Shown in pieces: positions 30,679 to 36,751 of a DNA stretch of 64,000 nt (position 1 is the first letter of the stretch; every line of letters starts with the position of its first letter). The position numbers were made by a program, and so were the translations under genes. Source of the stretch: Ahrensia marina. GTDB taxonomy: Bacteria > Pseudomonadota > Alphaproteobacteria > Rhizobiales > Rhizobiaceae. Location: positions 124,001 through 188,000 of the forward strand of contig NZ_JXMU01000010.1 of NCBI RefSeq assembly GCF_001293565.1. Direction: 5' to 3'. The notes under the pieces were generated by a model. The model had not been told where the DNA came from, ran no database searches, and worked only from the letters and a program-made list of their open reading frames with translations.

Positions 30679-30793
30679 GCAAAGCCAGATCGCTTGAGCC
30701 ATAATTCTGGTGAAAGACCGATCTGCGTGCTTCTCGCGGCGCTGAATCATATTGACAGTAAATTCATATAAAATGTAACGTCATTTCACTATT

Positions 30794-30938
30794 TTGGGAG
30801 AATCGGACTTACCGATGCCGAAGGAGCAACCACCCCGGAAACTCTCAGGCAAATGGACCAATTTAGTGCAATGACTCTGGAGAGAGGCCGAAGGCCCGCC
30901 GAAGGGATAACAATCTCAGGCACATAGACAGAGGGGGT
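30794..30938 (+). promoter_or_regulatory. Tandem glycine riboswitch
   Basis: Two glycine aptamers follow one another upstream of gcvT. The first runs from GGGAGAATCGG through CCGAAGGAGCAA to ACTCTCAGGCAAATGGACC. The second runs from TCTGGAGAGAGGCCGAAGG through CCGCCGAAGGGATAA to ATCTCAGGCACATAGACAGA. The repeated GCCGAAGG and CTCAGGCA blocks are diagnostic of the family. It should turn on the glycine cleavage operon when glycine is abundant. A hairpin, CCGGATCATCCGG (30970-30982), lies between the second aptamer and gcvT and may be part of the expression platform. Nothing else is seen in 30679-30793. Confidence 0.93.
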
Positions 30939-32504: not shown

Positions 32505-35339
32505 ATGTCTTTTGTTCCGACAAAATACGAACCATATGATTTTGCCAACCGGCGCCATATTGGTCCTTCCCCTGCTGAAATCGCTGACATGCTTAAGGTT
32601 ATCGGTGTCAAAAGTCTTGATGACTTGATTAACCAGACTGTACCCGACAGCATTCGTCAAAAAGAGCCGCTAGATTTCGGCAAACCTTTGTCGGAACGCG
32701 ACCTGCTCTGGCACATGCGGGAAGTCGCCAATAAGAACGAAGTTTTTACATCGATGATCGGCCAGGGATATTATGGCACGGTAACGCCGCCTGCTATCCA
32801 ACGTAATATTCTGGAAAATCCGGCTTGGTACACGGCCTATACGCCCTATCAGCCGGAGATCAGTCAGGGCCGCCTCGAAGCCCTGCTCAACTTCCAGACC
32901 ATGATCTGTGATCTGACAGGCTTGGACGTTGCCAACGCTTCCCTGCTCGATGAAGGCACTGCGGCAGCCGAAGCCATGACAATGGCGCAGCGCGTCTCCA
33001 AATCTAAAGCAAAGCAGTTCTTTATTGACGAAAACTGCCACGCTCAAAACATCAATGTGATGAAAACCCGCGCCGAACCGCTCGGCATTGAAATCATCGT
33101 CGGCCCGGTTGAGCAATTGGACCCAGCAGCCGTATTTGGGGCGATTTTCCAATATCCGGGCACACGCGGCGGATTGCAGGACTTCACATCGCAGATTGAA
33201 GCGCTTCACAACGAAAAAGCGCTCGGCATTGTGATTGCAGACCCGATGGCGCTGGCCTTGCTCAAAGAGCCGGGCGCAATGGGCGCGGATATTGCTGTCG
33301 GATCGACGCAGCGCTTTGGTGTACCGATGGGATTTGGTGGGCCGCACGCCGCCTATATGTCATGCCGTGATGCCTATAAGCGTTCCCTGCCTGGCCGTAT
33401 TGTTGGCGTTTCCAAAGATGCGCGCGGCAATCAGGCATACCGTCTGTCACTGCAAACACGCGAACAACATATCCGCCGTGAAAAAGCGACATCAAACGTG
33501 TGTACAGCGCAGGCTTTGCTTGCCGTGATCGCGGGCTTTTACGCTGTCTTTCATGGCGCGGAAGGCGTCAAAGCCATCGCCCAGCAAATCCACCTTAAAG
33601 CGGCACGCATTGCAAAAGCCCTGTCCGCCAACGGGTTTGAACTCGAACACAACGCGTTTTTTGATACAATCTGCGTCGAAGTCGGCGCCATGCAGGGCGC
33701 AATTTTAGAGTCCGCACGGGCACGCAAAATCAATTTGCGCAAAATCGGCACAAGCAAATTGGGCATTTCTGTCGACGAGACAACACGCCTTGAATCGCTT
33801 TCAGACCTGCTGGAGGCCTTTGGCATTAAAGATGGCATTGATAATAAAGAGCCGGATTATTGCCTGCCGGAGGCATTGGTACGAGAAACTGAATATTTCC
33901 AGCATGCCATCTTCCAGATGAACCGCGCTGAAACGGAAATGATGCGCTATATGCGCAGGCTCGCAGACCGCGATCTGGCATTGGACCGTGCGATGATACC
34001 GCTTGGTTCCTGCACCATGAAGCTGAACTCTGCTGCGGAAATGATGCCGATCACATGGCCGGAATTTTCAAATCTTCACCCCTACGCGCCAAGCGAACAG
34101 GTTGAAGGCTATAATGAAATGCTCGCCGACCTGTCGGAAAAACTATGCATGATCACCGGCTATGACGCGATGTCAATGCAGCCGAACTCCGGCGCGCAAG
34201 GCGAATATGCGGGCCTTCTGACAATTCGCGCCTATCACCGTTCGCGCGGTGACAATGAGCGCAATGTTTGTCTTATTCCCGTCTCCGCGCACGGCACAAA
34301 TCCGGCATCCGCTCAAATGGCAGGTATGGAAGTTGTCGTTGTTAAATCGGCTGAAAACGGCGATATCGACATTGACGATTTCCGCGAAAAGGCAAAAGCG
34401 GCCGGAGACCGTCTGGCGGCTTGCATGATCACCTACCCGTCAACGCATGGCGTGTTTGAAGAAACCGTTCGCGAAATTTGTGATATCACACATGAGTTTG
34501 GCGGACAGGTATATCTGGACGGCGCTAATTTGAACGCGATGGTCGGCTTGGCAAAGCCGGGCGAGATCGGCTCCGACGTCAGCCATTTGAACCTGCATAA
34601 GACATTTTGTATTCCGCACGGCGGCGGCGGCCCCGGCATGGGACCAATTGGTGTGAAAAGCCATCTTGAACCTTTCCTGCCGGGCAATCCCGCGGATGAT
34701 GAAAGCGCCGTATCCAGTGCAAATTATGGCTCTGCATCCATCCTGCCGATCAGTTGGGCCTACTGCCTGATGATGGGCGGCAGCGGCTTAACGCAGGCAA
34801 CCAAGATCGCAATCCTGAACGCCAACTACATCGCCAAACGTCTGGAAGACGGCTTTGATGTTCTCTTTAAGGGCCGCAAAGGACGTGTTGCCCATGAGTG
34901 CATTTTAGACACAAGACCGTTTGCAGACAGTGCCCATGTCACCGTTGAGGATATTGCCAAGCGCCTGATTGATAGCGGTTTCCATGCGCCGACAATGAGC
35001 TGGCCGGTTGCAGGGACATTGATGGTCGAACCGACAGAGAGCGAAACAAAAGCCGAGCTTGACCGCTTTTGTGATGCAATGCTGTCTATCCGCAATGAGA
35101 TTGCAGCCATTGAAAGCGGTGACATGGATGCGGAAAACAATCCGCTGAAAAATGCACCGCATACAACAGCCGATCTGATTGCCGAATGGGATCGCCCCTA
35201 TTCGCGCGAAGCCGGATGTTTCCCCGCCGGTGCATTCAGGGTTGATAAATACTGGCCGTCCGTGGGCCGTATCGACAACGCCTTTGGTGATAGAAATCTC
35301 GTCTGCACCTGCCCGCCGCTTGAAAACTATCTTGATTGA
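32505..35339 (+). CDS. gcvP: Glycine dehydrogenase (decarboxylating), P protein
   Basis: This single-chain P protein of 944 residues decarboxylates glycine with PLP and loads the aminomethyl group onto lipoyl-H. The N-terminal half is the catalytically silent repeat ([33 protein letters not shown]). The C-terminal half carries the PLP lysine K699 in [19 protein letters not shown]. The ends [19 protein letters not shown] are typical. The gene ends the operon; an imperfect 11-bp hairpin at 35368-35394 follows. Confidence 0.97.
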
Positions 35340-35367
35340 TATGAACGCGCGCAGCGCTTCACAATAC

Positions 35368-35394
35368 CGGCGGTCCGGAATTTCCGGATCGCCG
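35368..35394. terminator. Hairpin downstream of gcvP, probable terminator
   Basis: Arms CGGCGGTCCGG (35368-35378) and CCGGATCGCCG (35384-35394) pair over 11 bp with one G-T wobble around a 5-nt loop, 29 bp after the gcvP stop. No clear T-tract follows, so termination efficiency is uncertain. Confidence 0.5.
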
Positions 35395-35494
35395 CTTCCC
35401 ACAAAGCTTTGATTGAGCTTGACAGCTTTGGGCTTTGATGTAGCCTTAATTCTATGAAAAACGCACCGGCACATAATCGCTATTGCTTGAGGGT

Positions 35495-35658
35495 AATTCC
35501 GGCACGGAATTAGACCCCGAATCGTGCAGTCATGCATCGATATCGGGGCGCGTTGATTATCGGATAAACCGATCTTTCCCGGAGAAAACCGGGATCCCCA
35601 TTTATTAATCTGCCATTGATCGTAAGCGCTTCATTGCTGTGCGCTTCGCGGTGCAATG
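35495..35658. ncRNA. Hairpin-rich intergenic region, candidate small RNA or structured leader
   Basis: The 340-bp gap between gcvP and the first Rnk-like gene contains four near-consecutive strong hairpins. They are 35495-35511 (perfect 7-bp arms), 35515-35548 (CCCCGA/TCGGGG outer stem with an inner 8-bp stem and GTCA loop), 35559-35573 (ATCGG/CCGAT) and 35577-35594 (TCCCGG/CCGGGA). A fifth (CATTGC/GCAATG) covers 35632-35658. No coding frame explains them. A TTGACA at about 35418 could be a -35 element, but no convincing -10 was found. It could be a small RNA on either strand or a long leader of the Rnk-like gene. No Rfam family is recognised. Confidence 0.45.
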
Positions 35659-35679
35659 ACGTTTTTAAGCGAACGCATT

Positions 35680-36093
35680 ATGACCTCTTCATCTCCAAGA
35701 ATAATAATCGGTGAAACCGATTTTACCAGACTGACCAATCTTGCCGAAGCAACCGCCCGTTCCAACAGCGCGGTAGCAGACTTTCTGATGTCGGAGCTTG
35801 ATCGCGCGACGGTTAAGCCCGATCATTTGGTCAAGCCAACCACCGTCAAGATGGGCTCTACCCTGACTTATGAAACCGATCATGGTGAGCATAGAACCGT
35901 TACGCTGGTGTTTCCGGTTGATGCCGACATTTCACGCGGCAGAATTTCTATCCTGACACCCATCGGTGCGGCATTGATTGGTCTGCGTGTCGGGCAATCA
36001 ATTAATTGGACAGCACCAAACGGTGAAAAGCATAAGCTGACCATCATTTCCGCCAATGCCGAACAGGAAGCTTTTGATCGGGCGGCGCAATAA
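35680..36093 (+). CDS. rnk: Rnk family nucleoside diphosphate kinase regulator (GreA/GreB C-terminal-like)
   Basis: This 137-residue protein matches the usual Rnk length. A short N-terminal coiled-coil-like segment (FTRLTNLAEATARSNSAVAD, FLMSELDRA) precedes a GreA/GreB C-terminal FKBP-like domain. The domain has VKMGSTLTYETDHGEHRTVTLVFP, the P-x-D block FPVDADISRGRISILTPIGAALIGLR and GQSINWTAPNGEKHKLTII. Rnk binds RNA polymerase or influences NDK activity and nucleotide pools; which applies here is unknown. ATG 35680 was chosen to fit family length over an ATG 24 bp upstream inside a hairpin. It has a paralogue just downstream. Confidence 0.8.
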   Translation: MTSSSPRIIIGETDFTRLTNLAEATARSNSAVADFLMSELDRATVKPDHLVKPTTVKMGSTLTYETDHGEHRTVTLVFPVDADISRGRISILTPIGAALIGLRVGQSINWTAPNGEKHKLTIISANAEQEAFDRAAQ

Positions 36094-36161
36094 TGCTGAA
36101 CACGCACGATACATTCAACAGATTAGCTCTATCAGGAGGATGCCTGCTGGCAGGATTTTAG

Positions 36162-36192
36162 CCCCTGCGCGGCACAATCGTGCTGCCAGGGG
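36162..36192 (+). promoter_or_regulatory. Strong hairpin in the leader between two Rnk-like genes
   Basis: Thirteen base pairs with one bulged C and one G-T pair close a 4-nt AATC loop (arms start CCCCTG and end CAGGGG). It lies 52 bp before the second Rnk-like start. A smaller CCTG/CAGG hairpin lies 5' of it and a CCC-TTC-GGG hairpin 3' of it, just upstream of the GGAG at the start. It could be a terminator without T-tract, or a translation-control leader. Confidence 0.5.
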
Positions 36193-36244
36193 AACAGTCC
36201 ACTTTCATCATTGAAAATGCCCTTCGGGTGCCAGGAGACTAATC

Positions 36245-36751
36245 ATGATTTCTCATGAATGTATTTTAACGCAAAGCAATGCCGCTCTATTGCATAAGCT
36301 TTTTGAAGCACAGCAACAGCAAAACACTCTGTTTGCAAGACTTCTAAAATCGAAACTAGACAACGCCCAAATCTGTCCGGAACACGATATTCCCGACGAT
36401 ATCGTTACGCTGGATAGCCGTGTCACCTACAGCGTGAATGCGGCTTTTACCGACACCCGTATCATTTCAGCGCGCAACAGCAGCAATATTGTCGGGCTGT
36501 CCCTGCCGGTGACAAATTTAAGAGGCCTTGCGCTCATCGGTCTAAGGCAAAGCCAATATTTTACACTGATTCGACCAGATCACAGCGCGGACCGGCTATA
36601 TGTCGAAAAAATCCAGTTTCAGCCGGAGACACACCGGCAGCTTTTAAAAGATGCAATTATTGCCAATTCGCCTGCACAGCGGCGCGCATCCATCAAGCTT
36701 GTTCACTCGGTGGCCACACGCTCCGACTTTTTCTCACAAACATCCCAATAA
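36245..36751 (+). CDS. Second GreA/GreB-C-terminal-like (Rnk-type) protein
   Basis: This 168-residue paralogue of the preceding Rnk-like protein keeps the same layout: an N-terminal helical segment (LLHKLFEAQQQQNTLFARLL) and a domain with DDIVTLDSRVTYSVN, LSLPVTNLRGLALIGLRQSQ. The otherwise conserved Asp-rich PVDAD-type block is reduced to PVTN. It has an extra ~30-residue basic C-terminal tail (LVHSVATRSDFF). Divergence from its neighbour suggests a different partner. CCAGGAGACT precedes the ATG. The tandem arrangement is a duplication followed by divergence (inference). Confidence 0.7.
   Translation: MISHECILTQSNAALLHKLFEAQQQQNTLFARLLKSKLDNAQICPEHDIPDDIVTLDSRVTYSVNAAFTDTRIISARNSSNIVGLSLPVTNLRGLALIGLRQSQYFTLIRPDHSADRLYVEKIQFQPETHRQLLKDAIIANSPAQRRASIKLVHSVATRSDFFSQTSQ

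Follow-up and report, generated by a model that had tools for sequence, protein, structure and literature searches.

A conserved leader, with a short open reading frame and a stop-codon hairpin, precedes rnk-like genes in Alphaproteobacteria and is probably a leader-peptide attenuator

Introduction

What does a dense cluster of hairpins do in front of an rnk-like gene? The question is raised by a 64,000-nt stretch of Ahrensia marina DNA (contig NZ_JXMU01000010.1, positions 124,001 to 188,000; hereafter the window, whose own numbering is used throughout). In it the gcvTHP genes, ending with gcvP at 35339, are followed by a gap and then by two genes for Rnk/GreA-like proteins, here called rnk1 and rnk2. 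A sequence-only reading had noted five strong hairpins in the gap and proposed them as a candidate new structured RNA. Rnk is a Gre-like factor, discussed among those that bind the secondary channel of RNA polymerase, and no description of what controls rnk in alphaproteobacteria was found in the open-access literature. The analysis presented here indicates that the first two hairpins belong to a conserved leader built around a short open reading frame (ORF), which is very probably a leader-peptide attenuator of rnk of one kind or another.

Results

All five hairpins exist on the + strand and exceed what chance would provide. The region 35490-35675 folded at -68.2 kcal/mol, against a mean of -53.6 for shuffled sequences (z -3.0; 1 of 200 shuffles as good). 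Within 35490-35660, 19 perfect pairs lay in hairpins (shuffled mean 4.25; 2 of 500 as high), and three perfect hairpins of at least five pairs were found (shuffled mean 0.85; 16 of 500 reached three). Since 28 of 751 window segments of the same length held as many perfect hairpins, the count is unusual, not unique.

A single RNA unit of five hairpins was ruled out, because the plan common to the regions upstream of rnk-like genes contains only hairpins 1 and 2. This plan consists of TTGAC, an ATG, a short ORF of 15-23 codons, a first stem (P1) in the last codons, the stop codon and a second stem (P2; CCC...GGG). The window copy occupies 35454-35548, and its ORF overlaps the first hairpin, contrary to the earlier view that the gap encodes nothing (Table 1). 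The proposed new structured RNA thus stands as a conserved structured leader organized around a leader peptide, and falls as one non-coding RNA of five hairpins. For hairpins 3-5 no common counterpart was recognised in other genera, where no systematic test was made.

Table 1. Coordinates of the leader elements, hairpins and rnk-like genes in the window
Feature	Position	Strand	Remarks
-35 box TTGACA	35419..35424	+	From sequence; 35 nt before leader ATG; no clear -10 box
Leader ORF 1, MKNAPAHNRYCLRVIPARN-stop	35454..35513	+	19 codons; probably leaderless; descriptor and family codon test
Hairpin 1 (P1)	35494..35512	+	8 perfect pairs; inside last codons and stop codon of leader ORF 1
Hairpin 2 (P2), CCCC...GGGG	35515..35548	+	14 pairs, interrupted; one base after stop codon
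Hairpin 3	35559..35573	+	5 pairs
Hairpin 4	35577..35594	+	6 pairs
Hairpin 5	35614..35658	+	16 pairs, interrupted; in spacer, outside common plan
rnk1, nucleoside diphosphate kinase regulator	35680..36093	+	Rnk_N and GreA_GreB domains; NF004396 144.3 bits (cut-off 109); start from congener comparison
Leader ORF 2, MLNTHDTFNRLALSGGCLLAGF-stop	36093..36161	+	ATG overlaps rnk1 stop
P2 of second leader, CCCCTG...CAGGGG	36162..36192	+	Directly after stop
rnk2, diverged rnk1 paralogue	36245..36751	+	NF004396 55.4 bits, under cut-off 109

The closest relative is the congener Ahrensia kielensis DSM 5890 (L005), in which leader ORF 1 encodes MRNVTAHIRYCLRVIPARN. Conservation of the gap between the two was uneven: 75 of the 77 bases of 35478-35554, which hold hairpins 1 and 2, were kept, with one base inserted, the -35 region was also alike, and the remainder was less alike. 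At the place of hairpins 3 and 4 the congener has hairpins of different sequence. The start of its rnk1 aligns with window position 35680, so rnk1 in the window probably does not begin with the ATG at 35656, and hairpin 5 precedes the gene. The cluster is next to an rnk-like gene, as had been noticed; the gene start is probably not the one placed beside the last hairpin. A chance cluster or a gcvP terminator, devoid of any function of its own, would suit the hairpin count of the 28 window segments and the position of hairpins 3-5 outside the plan. For hairpins 1 and 2 this reading is already refuted by their place in a family-wide element and by the retention of 35478-35554 in a less conserved gap, and a separate hairpin stands behind gcvP at 35368-35394; this explanation is accordingly regarded as very improbable.

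Spread of the element was assessed with a descriptor that ignores peptide sequence and demands TTGAC 33-38 nt before an ORF whose stop codon adjoins a CCC hairpin. It fitted 71 of 109 regions upstream of rnk-like genes, one of their 109 reverse complements and a mean of 0.0 in five shuffle sets; here as throughout, the controls ignore relatedness between sequences. Before counting, all rows with a match poorer than E 1e-14, most of them GreA, were excluded; six loci from such rows gave no match on either strand. The 109 regions hold seven genes twice (L060, L080, L096, L100, L107, L118 and L127; four positive), which reduces the count to 67 of 102 genes, and L018, one further fit beyond the 71, adds one; the distinct element sequences number 66. 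A descriptor lacking the promoter had fitted 47 of 109 and was superseded. On both strands of the whole window, the descriptor found one place only. Outside the order it fitted 8 of 25 loci from the class, and class loci L151 and L153 gave no match. Three of nine named plasmid records fitted strictly: Sinorhizobium meliloti ml28 pSymA, where rnk carries the leader MLTNRDIYPLNALGIRLIAGS, Sinorhizobium sp. B11 and Sphingobium xenophagum. In Rhizobium sp. SSA_523, one of the records that did not fit, the leader ends by eye in RMCLIAGR and CTGAC replaces TTGAC.

Association with rnk was also seen when the gene was disregarded. The DNA pattern for C-(P/L)-I-A-G-x-stop-CCC gave 55 matches in 40 of 251 genomes and none in a reversed control, and all of the 36 matches examined (in 30 loci) preceded rnk1 (27) or rnk2 (9); TTGAC stood 35-38 nt before the ORF in the 27 and was missing from that position in the nine. 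Beyond this set, 12 of 378 phylum genomes matched, two of them outside the class and reading TGG in place of the stop codon, and 0 of 367 class genomes (five from the same order) did, with two control matches. From these phylum and class searches the (P/L)-I-A-G-x end seems confined to the order, with other ends outside it. The constant position before rnk genes argues for a role in cis. A short attenuated RNA or peptide acting in trans, in the manner of S. meliloti rnTrpL/peTrpL and with rnk control secondary, would share the leaderless upstream ORF (uORF) plan of trpL (PMC7298713, accessible part) and agree with the conservation of peptide ends within lineages; given the 36 of 36 matches directly before rnk genes and the variation of peptide ends between lineages, such action is thought quite improbable.

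When the DNA of the gap was searched against 61 genomes (its own and 60 relatives), it matched itself and the congener, and there was a single further match, of 30 nt at E 0.008. A structure model, R1, built from ten relatives, gave 16 matches in 13 of 249 whole genomes, an underestimate because of strict filters and the few candidates scored. Fifteen of these matches have a leader ORF and an rnk-like gene downstream; the sixteenth, L048, is on a cut contig, and the same gene as L088 shows the leader. The earlier impression of no known family held: in Rfam release 15 the window element had no match at gathering, nor one beyond chance at E up to 10, and nothing relevant was obtained for the loci of 20 relatives at gathering or for L015 at E 10.

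Variation between elements indicates that the leader ORF is coding, and the ORF is presumably translated. Over 426 element pairs, 60-99% alike over the last nine codons, the synonymous share of codon differences was 0.46 in frame and 0.18 and 0.11 out of frame. In 16 elements chosen solely because their P2 begins with CCCCCGG, entropy averaged 0.31, 0.22 and 0.93 at the first, second and third codon positions. The third-position excess was weak in 18 elements grouped by CCCCGG (1.00, 0.90, 1.17) and in all 66 pooled (1.27, 1.25, 1.49), in the latter because lineages are mixed. A separate codon test with 33 elements picked by a peptide regular expression is biased, and these unbiased forms were used instead. 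Stop codons were TAG in 47, TGA in 14 and TAA in 5 of the distinct elements. The peptide end is conserved within lineages and differs between them: RVCPIAGx characterises the largest group of relatives, and other lineage-specific ends include RLFPIAEA, LRVKLMLGA, LQGQPVTGL, RAGNLIAGx, RTRTTAES, PAKLIFGS and VIPARN. A run of codons for one sensed amino acid, the mark of trpL-type leaders, was found in none of the 66 distinct peptides.

The promoter geometry is regular. Of the 66 distinct elements, 47 have TTGAC 35 nt before the ATG and the others have it at 34-37 nt, within the 33-38 nt allowed by the descriptor; with 15-90 nt allowed, it is at exactly 35 nt in 48 of 91. Because a -35 box at this distance would make the A of the ATG the first base of the transcript, transcription probably starts at or next to the leader ATG, giving a leaderless message; the -10 boxes are indistinct.

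The sequence-only reading had suggested looking for covariation in relatives, and the second stem does covary. In alignment A6, whose 29 sequences lie outside the training set, 95.9% of P2 cells were paired and both partners had changed in 5 of the 11 P2 pairs. For the structure as a whole the score was 0.274, where shuffling gave 0.152 and sliding never more than 0.077, and eight pairs changed on both sides, against 5.5 (22 of 500 shuffles reached eight); being fitted to R1, this alignment leans towards the model. It was drawn from 30 chosen loci, of which 28 gave the 29 matches and L194 and L202 none. The ten training sequences scored 0.243, against 0.158 shuffled.

P2 starts 0-4 nt after the stop codon across relatives. 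The first 8 nt behind it contain at most three T in 55 of 62 elements and more in seven, and a scan of 35200-36300 on the + strand found no intrinsic terminator. Lacking a U tract in most copies, P2 is therefore mostly no plain intrinsic terminator. By eye, its upper part is near CTCGG...GCGCC...CCGAG in L090, L031, L083, L138 and L075, which share neither peptide end nor lower stem, a pattern suggestive of a binding site. Were P1 and P2 chiefly a site for a protein or ligand, for example Rnk itself, with the ORF positioning the ribosome or arising as a by-product, this likeness across lineages and the strong P2 covariation would be accounted for. Such a site would leave unexplained the coding signal of the ORF frame itself, the fixing of P2 at 0-4 nt from the stop codon and the absence of the apical sequence from the Ahrensia copy, and is judged unlikely.

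A second copy of the leader (36093-36192) precedes rnk2. The rnk1 stop codon and the ATG of leader ORF 2 overlap as TAATG at 36091-36095, and the same intra-operon arrangement recurs: among 14 tandem loci, 13 have the start of the second ORF at -4 to +18 nt from the rnk1 stop, eight of them overlapping, and for the remaining one, L054, no stop was found by the scan. Translation of this leader would probably begin by coupling to that of rnk1 at its stop codon, and the leader would gate rnk2 likewise. The rnk2 protein had no Pfam match reaching the cut-off. At the equivalent place in two plasmid records the gene is annotated 'nucleoside-diphosphate kinase', which looks like a naming error.

Discussion

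The findings are best accommodated by a leader that senses the ribosome. A transcript beginning at or next to the leader ATG would let ribosomes load on the first RNA bases. A ribosome on the last codons or stop would have to open P1 and would sit over the 5' arm of P2, a dependence of P2 on ribosome position that is suggested by its distance of 0-4 nt from the stop. With prompt departure of the ribosome, P1 and P2 would fold and leave bare an untranslated, C-richer spacer of ~125 nt, in which Rho may end transcription before rnk; a ribosome that lingers, delayed in its final steps by the conserved peptide end or by a translation stress, would instead allow rnk to be transcribed. Rho prefers C-richer RNA, and C minus G in the spacer was 0.068 against 0.021 upstream (62 elements, paired p 4e-6). 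The spacer measured 75-201 nt, median 125, very short and very long ones excluded. As specified here, with its Rho step, the mechanism is put forward tentatively and stops somewhat short of being called probable. Relief by a slow or stalled ribosome is a guess as to both sign and signal, modelled on the DUF1127 leader of S. meliloti, where tetracycline and translation inhibitors bring relief (PMC12218461, accessible part).

Regulation at translation was weighed against termination by Rho. Antibiotic-inducible erm leaders work by translational attenuation, and here ribosome position would switch the RNA between pairings that mask the ribosome-binding site of rnk and pairings that expose it. Leader ORF and hairpins fit this equally, and in the window alone the freed 3' arm of P2 is predicted to pair with 0.34 of the bases of the rnk initiation zone. 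Over 63 elements, in contrast, predicted accessibility of that zone was 0.452 for the free RNA and 0.457 when a ribosome occupied the stop (p 0.49), and a long spacer separates P2 from the gene. Translational attenuation is hence held to be improbable, and transcription attenuation by Rho is favoured on account of the unchanged accessibility, the mostly missing U tract and the C-rich spacer.

Several observations weigh against the ribosome-sensing attenuator. Thirty-eight of the 109 upstream regions fall outside the strict descriptor. Among these, L018 does fit when read at the right place. Neither window copy is matched by R1 at E up to 10, R1 finds none in L008, and it gives the second copy of the congener only E 0.42; the Ahrensia copies are divergent members, placed in the family by position, anatomy and descriptor. 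In the ten-sequence alignment two of five covariation measures did not rise above shuffles (changes on both sides, 141 of 500; further pair types, 434 of 500). P1 is weakly supported, with 70.7% of cells paired in a fixed register in the 29 sequences, in part because that register shifts along with the codons for Cys and Gly, and it folds only modestly more strongly than synonymous recodings do (z averaging -0.49 and negative in 71% of 66; p 1e-4, uncorrected for relatedness). The excess of C over G in the spacer is mild, and no competing antiterminator pairing was identified.

A more far-reaching proposal is that these leaders form a new class of leaderless arrest-peptide attenuators, in which the peptide end, often close to (P/L)-I-A-G-x-stop and diversified elsewhere, would hold the terminating ribosome under translation stress and block the stop-codon hairpin. 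Translation would thereby be coupled to a Gre-type factor, with one sensor per paralogue, at the 5' end and, coupled, inside the operon. Taken whole, this proposal is rather doubtful.

Attenuation of this gene family has precedents. Leaders of rnk and greA with intrinsic terminators and antiterminators are described in Pseudomonas, Enterobacteria, Yersinia and bacilli by Naville and Gautheret in 2010, who counted greA/rnk among the most often attenuated genes; the accessible part of their paper mentions no leader ORF and no alphaproteobacterial case (PMC2965389). The alphaproteobacterial leader differs from theirs in its ORF, presumably translated, the stop codon between two hairpins and the mostly missing U tract. 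In S. meliloti, itself an alphaproteobacterium, rnTrpL/peTrpL likewise has a 14-codon leader ORF from the first RNA base and hairpins at and behind it, but it has consecutive Trp codons, an intrinsic terminator and a biosynthesis gene downstream (PMC7298713 and PMC10117765, accessible parts), whereas the rnk leader lacks a single-codon run and, in most copies, a U tract, and precedes the gene of an RNA-polymerase factor. The DUF1127 leader resembles it in having a uORF, no intrinsic terminator, presumed Rho involvement and relief when translation is hindered (PMC12218461, accessible part); the conserved part of the rnk leader, unlike it, is the ORF end, stop and P2. In Escherichia coli tnaC, as would be the case here, a ribosome that stays at the end of a short leader shields RNA on which Rho-dependent termination relies; the tryptophan-induced arrest is proven there, with no hairpin reported directly behind the stop in the accessible part of the same paper (PMC12218461), and arrest on the rnk leader is a guess. 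The alphaproteobacterial motifs odc1 and uORFC-8-2 also tie a conserved uORF and RNA structure to one gene, yet the genes (odc1; cysS, with cysteine codons) and architecture are others, and 'rnk' is absent from the accessible part of that paper (PMC8632094), as it was in a term search of the accessible part of PMC2864571. Searches of the open-access literature, supplements excluded, for rnk with leader peptide, attenuation or uORF found no description of this leader, although it may have been listed earlier. 'VCPIAG' was not found in the literature searched, and CPIAG or CLIAG inside words, among the matches listed, look unrelated.

If the leader senses translation and adjusts the amount of an RNA-polymerase factor, it would link the two machines directly. 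The sharp descriptor, the spread over several alphaproteobacterial families and the occurrence on S. meliloti pSymA make the family testable at once. A hairpin cluster can, moreover, betray an unannotated leader peptide.

Some features of the neighbourhood were recorded in passing. The hairpin at 35368-35394 behind gcvP, with 13-nt arms 92% complementary and no U tract, is possibly the gcvP 3' end; near its place the congener has, by eye, a hairpin of different sequence. Next to rnk in other replicons, gdhA adjoins the gene in Sinorhizobium meliloti pSymA (L168 1-1572) and lies near it in Sphingobium xenophagum p3 (L173 1192-2781). Upstream of gcvT, a glycine riboswitch aptamer was found at 30785-30870 (59.5 bits), the only one passing the cut-off in the window, and in the congener two such aptamers passed in tandem (L005 1036-1121 and 1122-1192).
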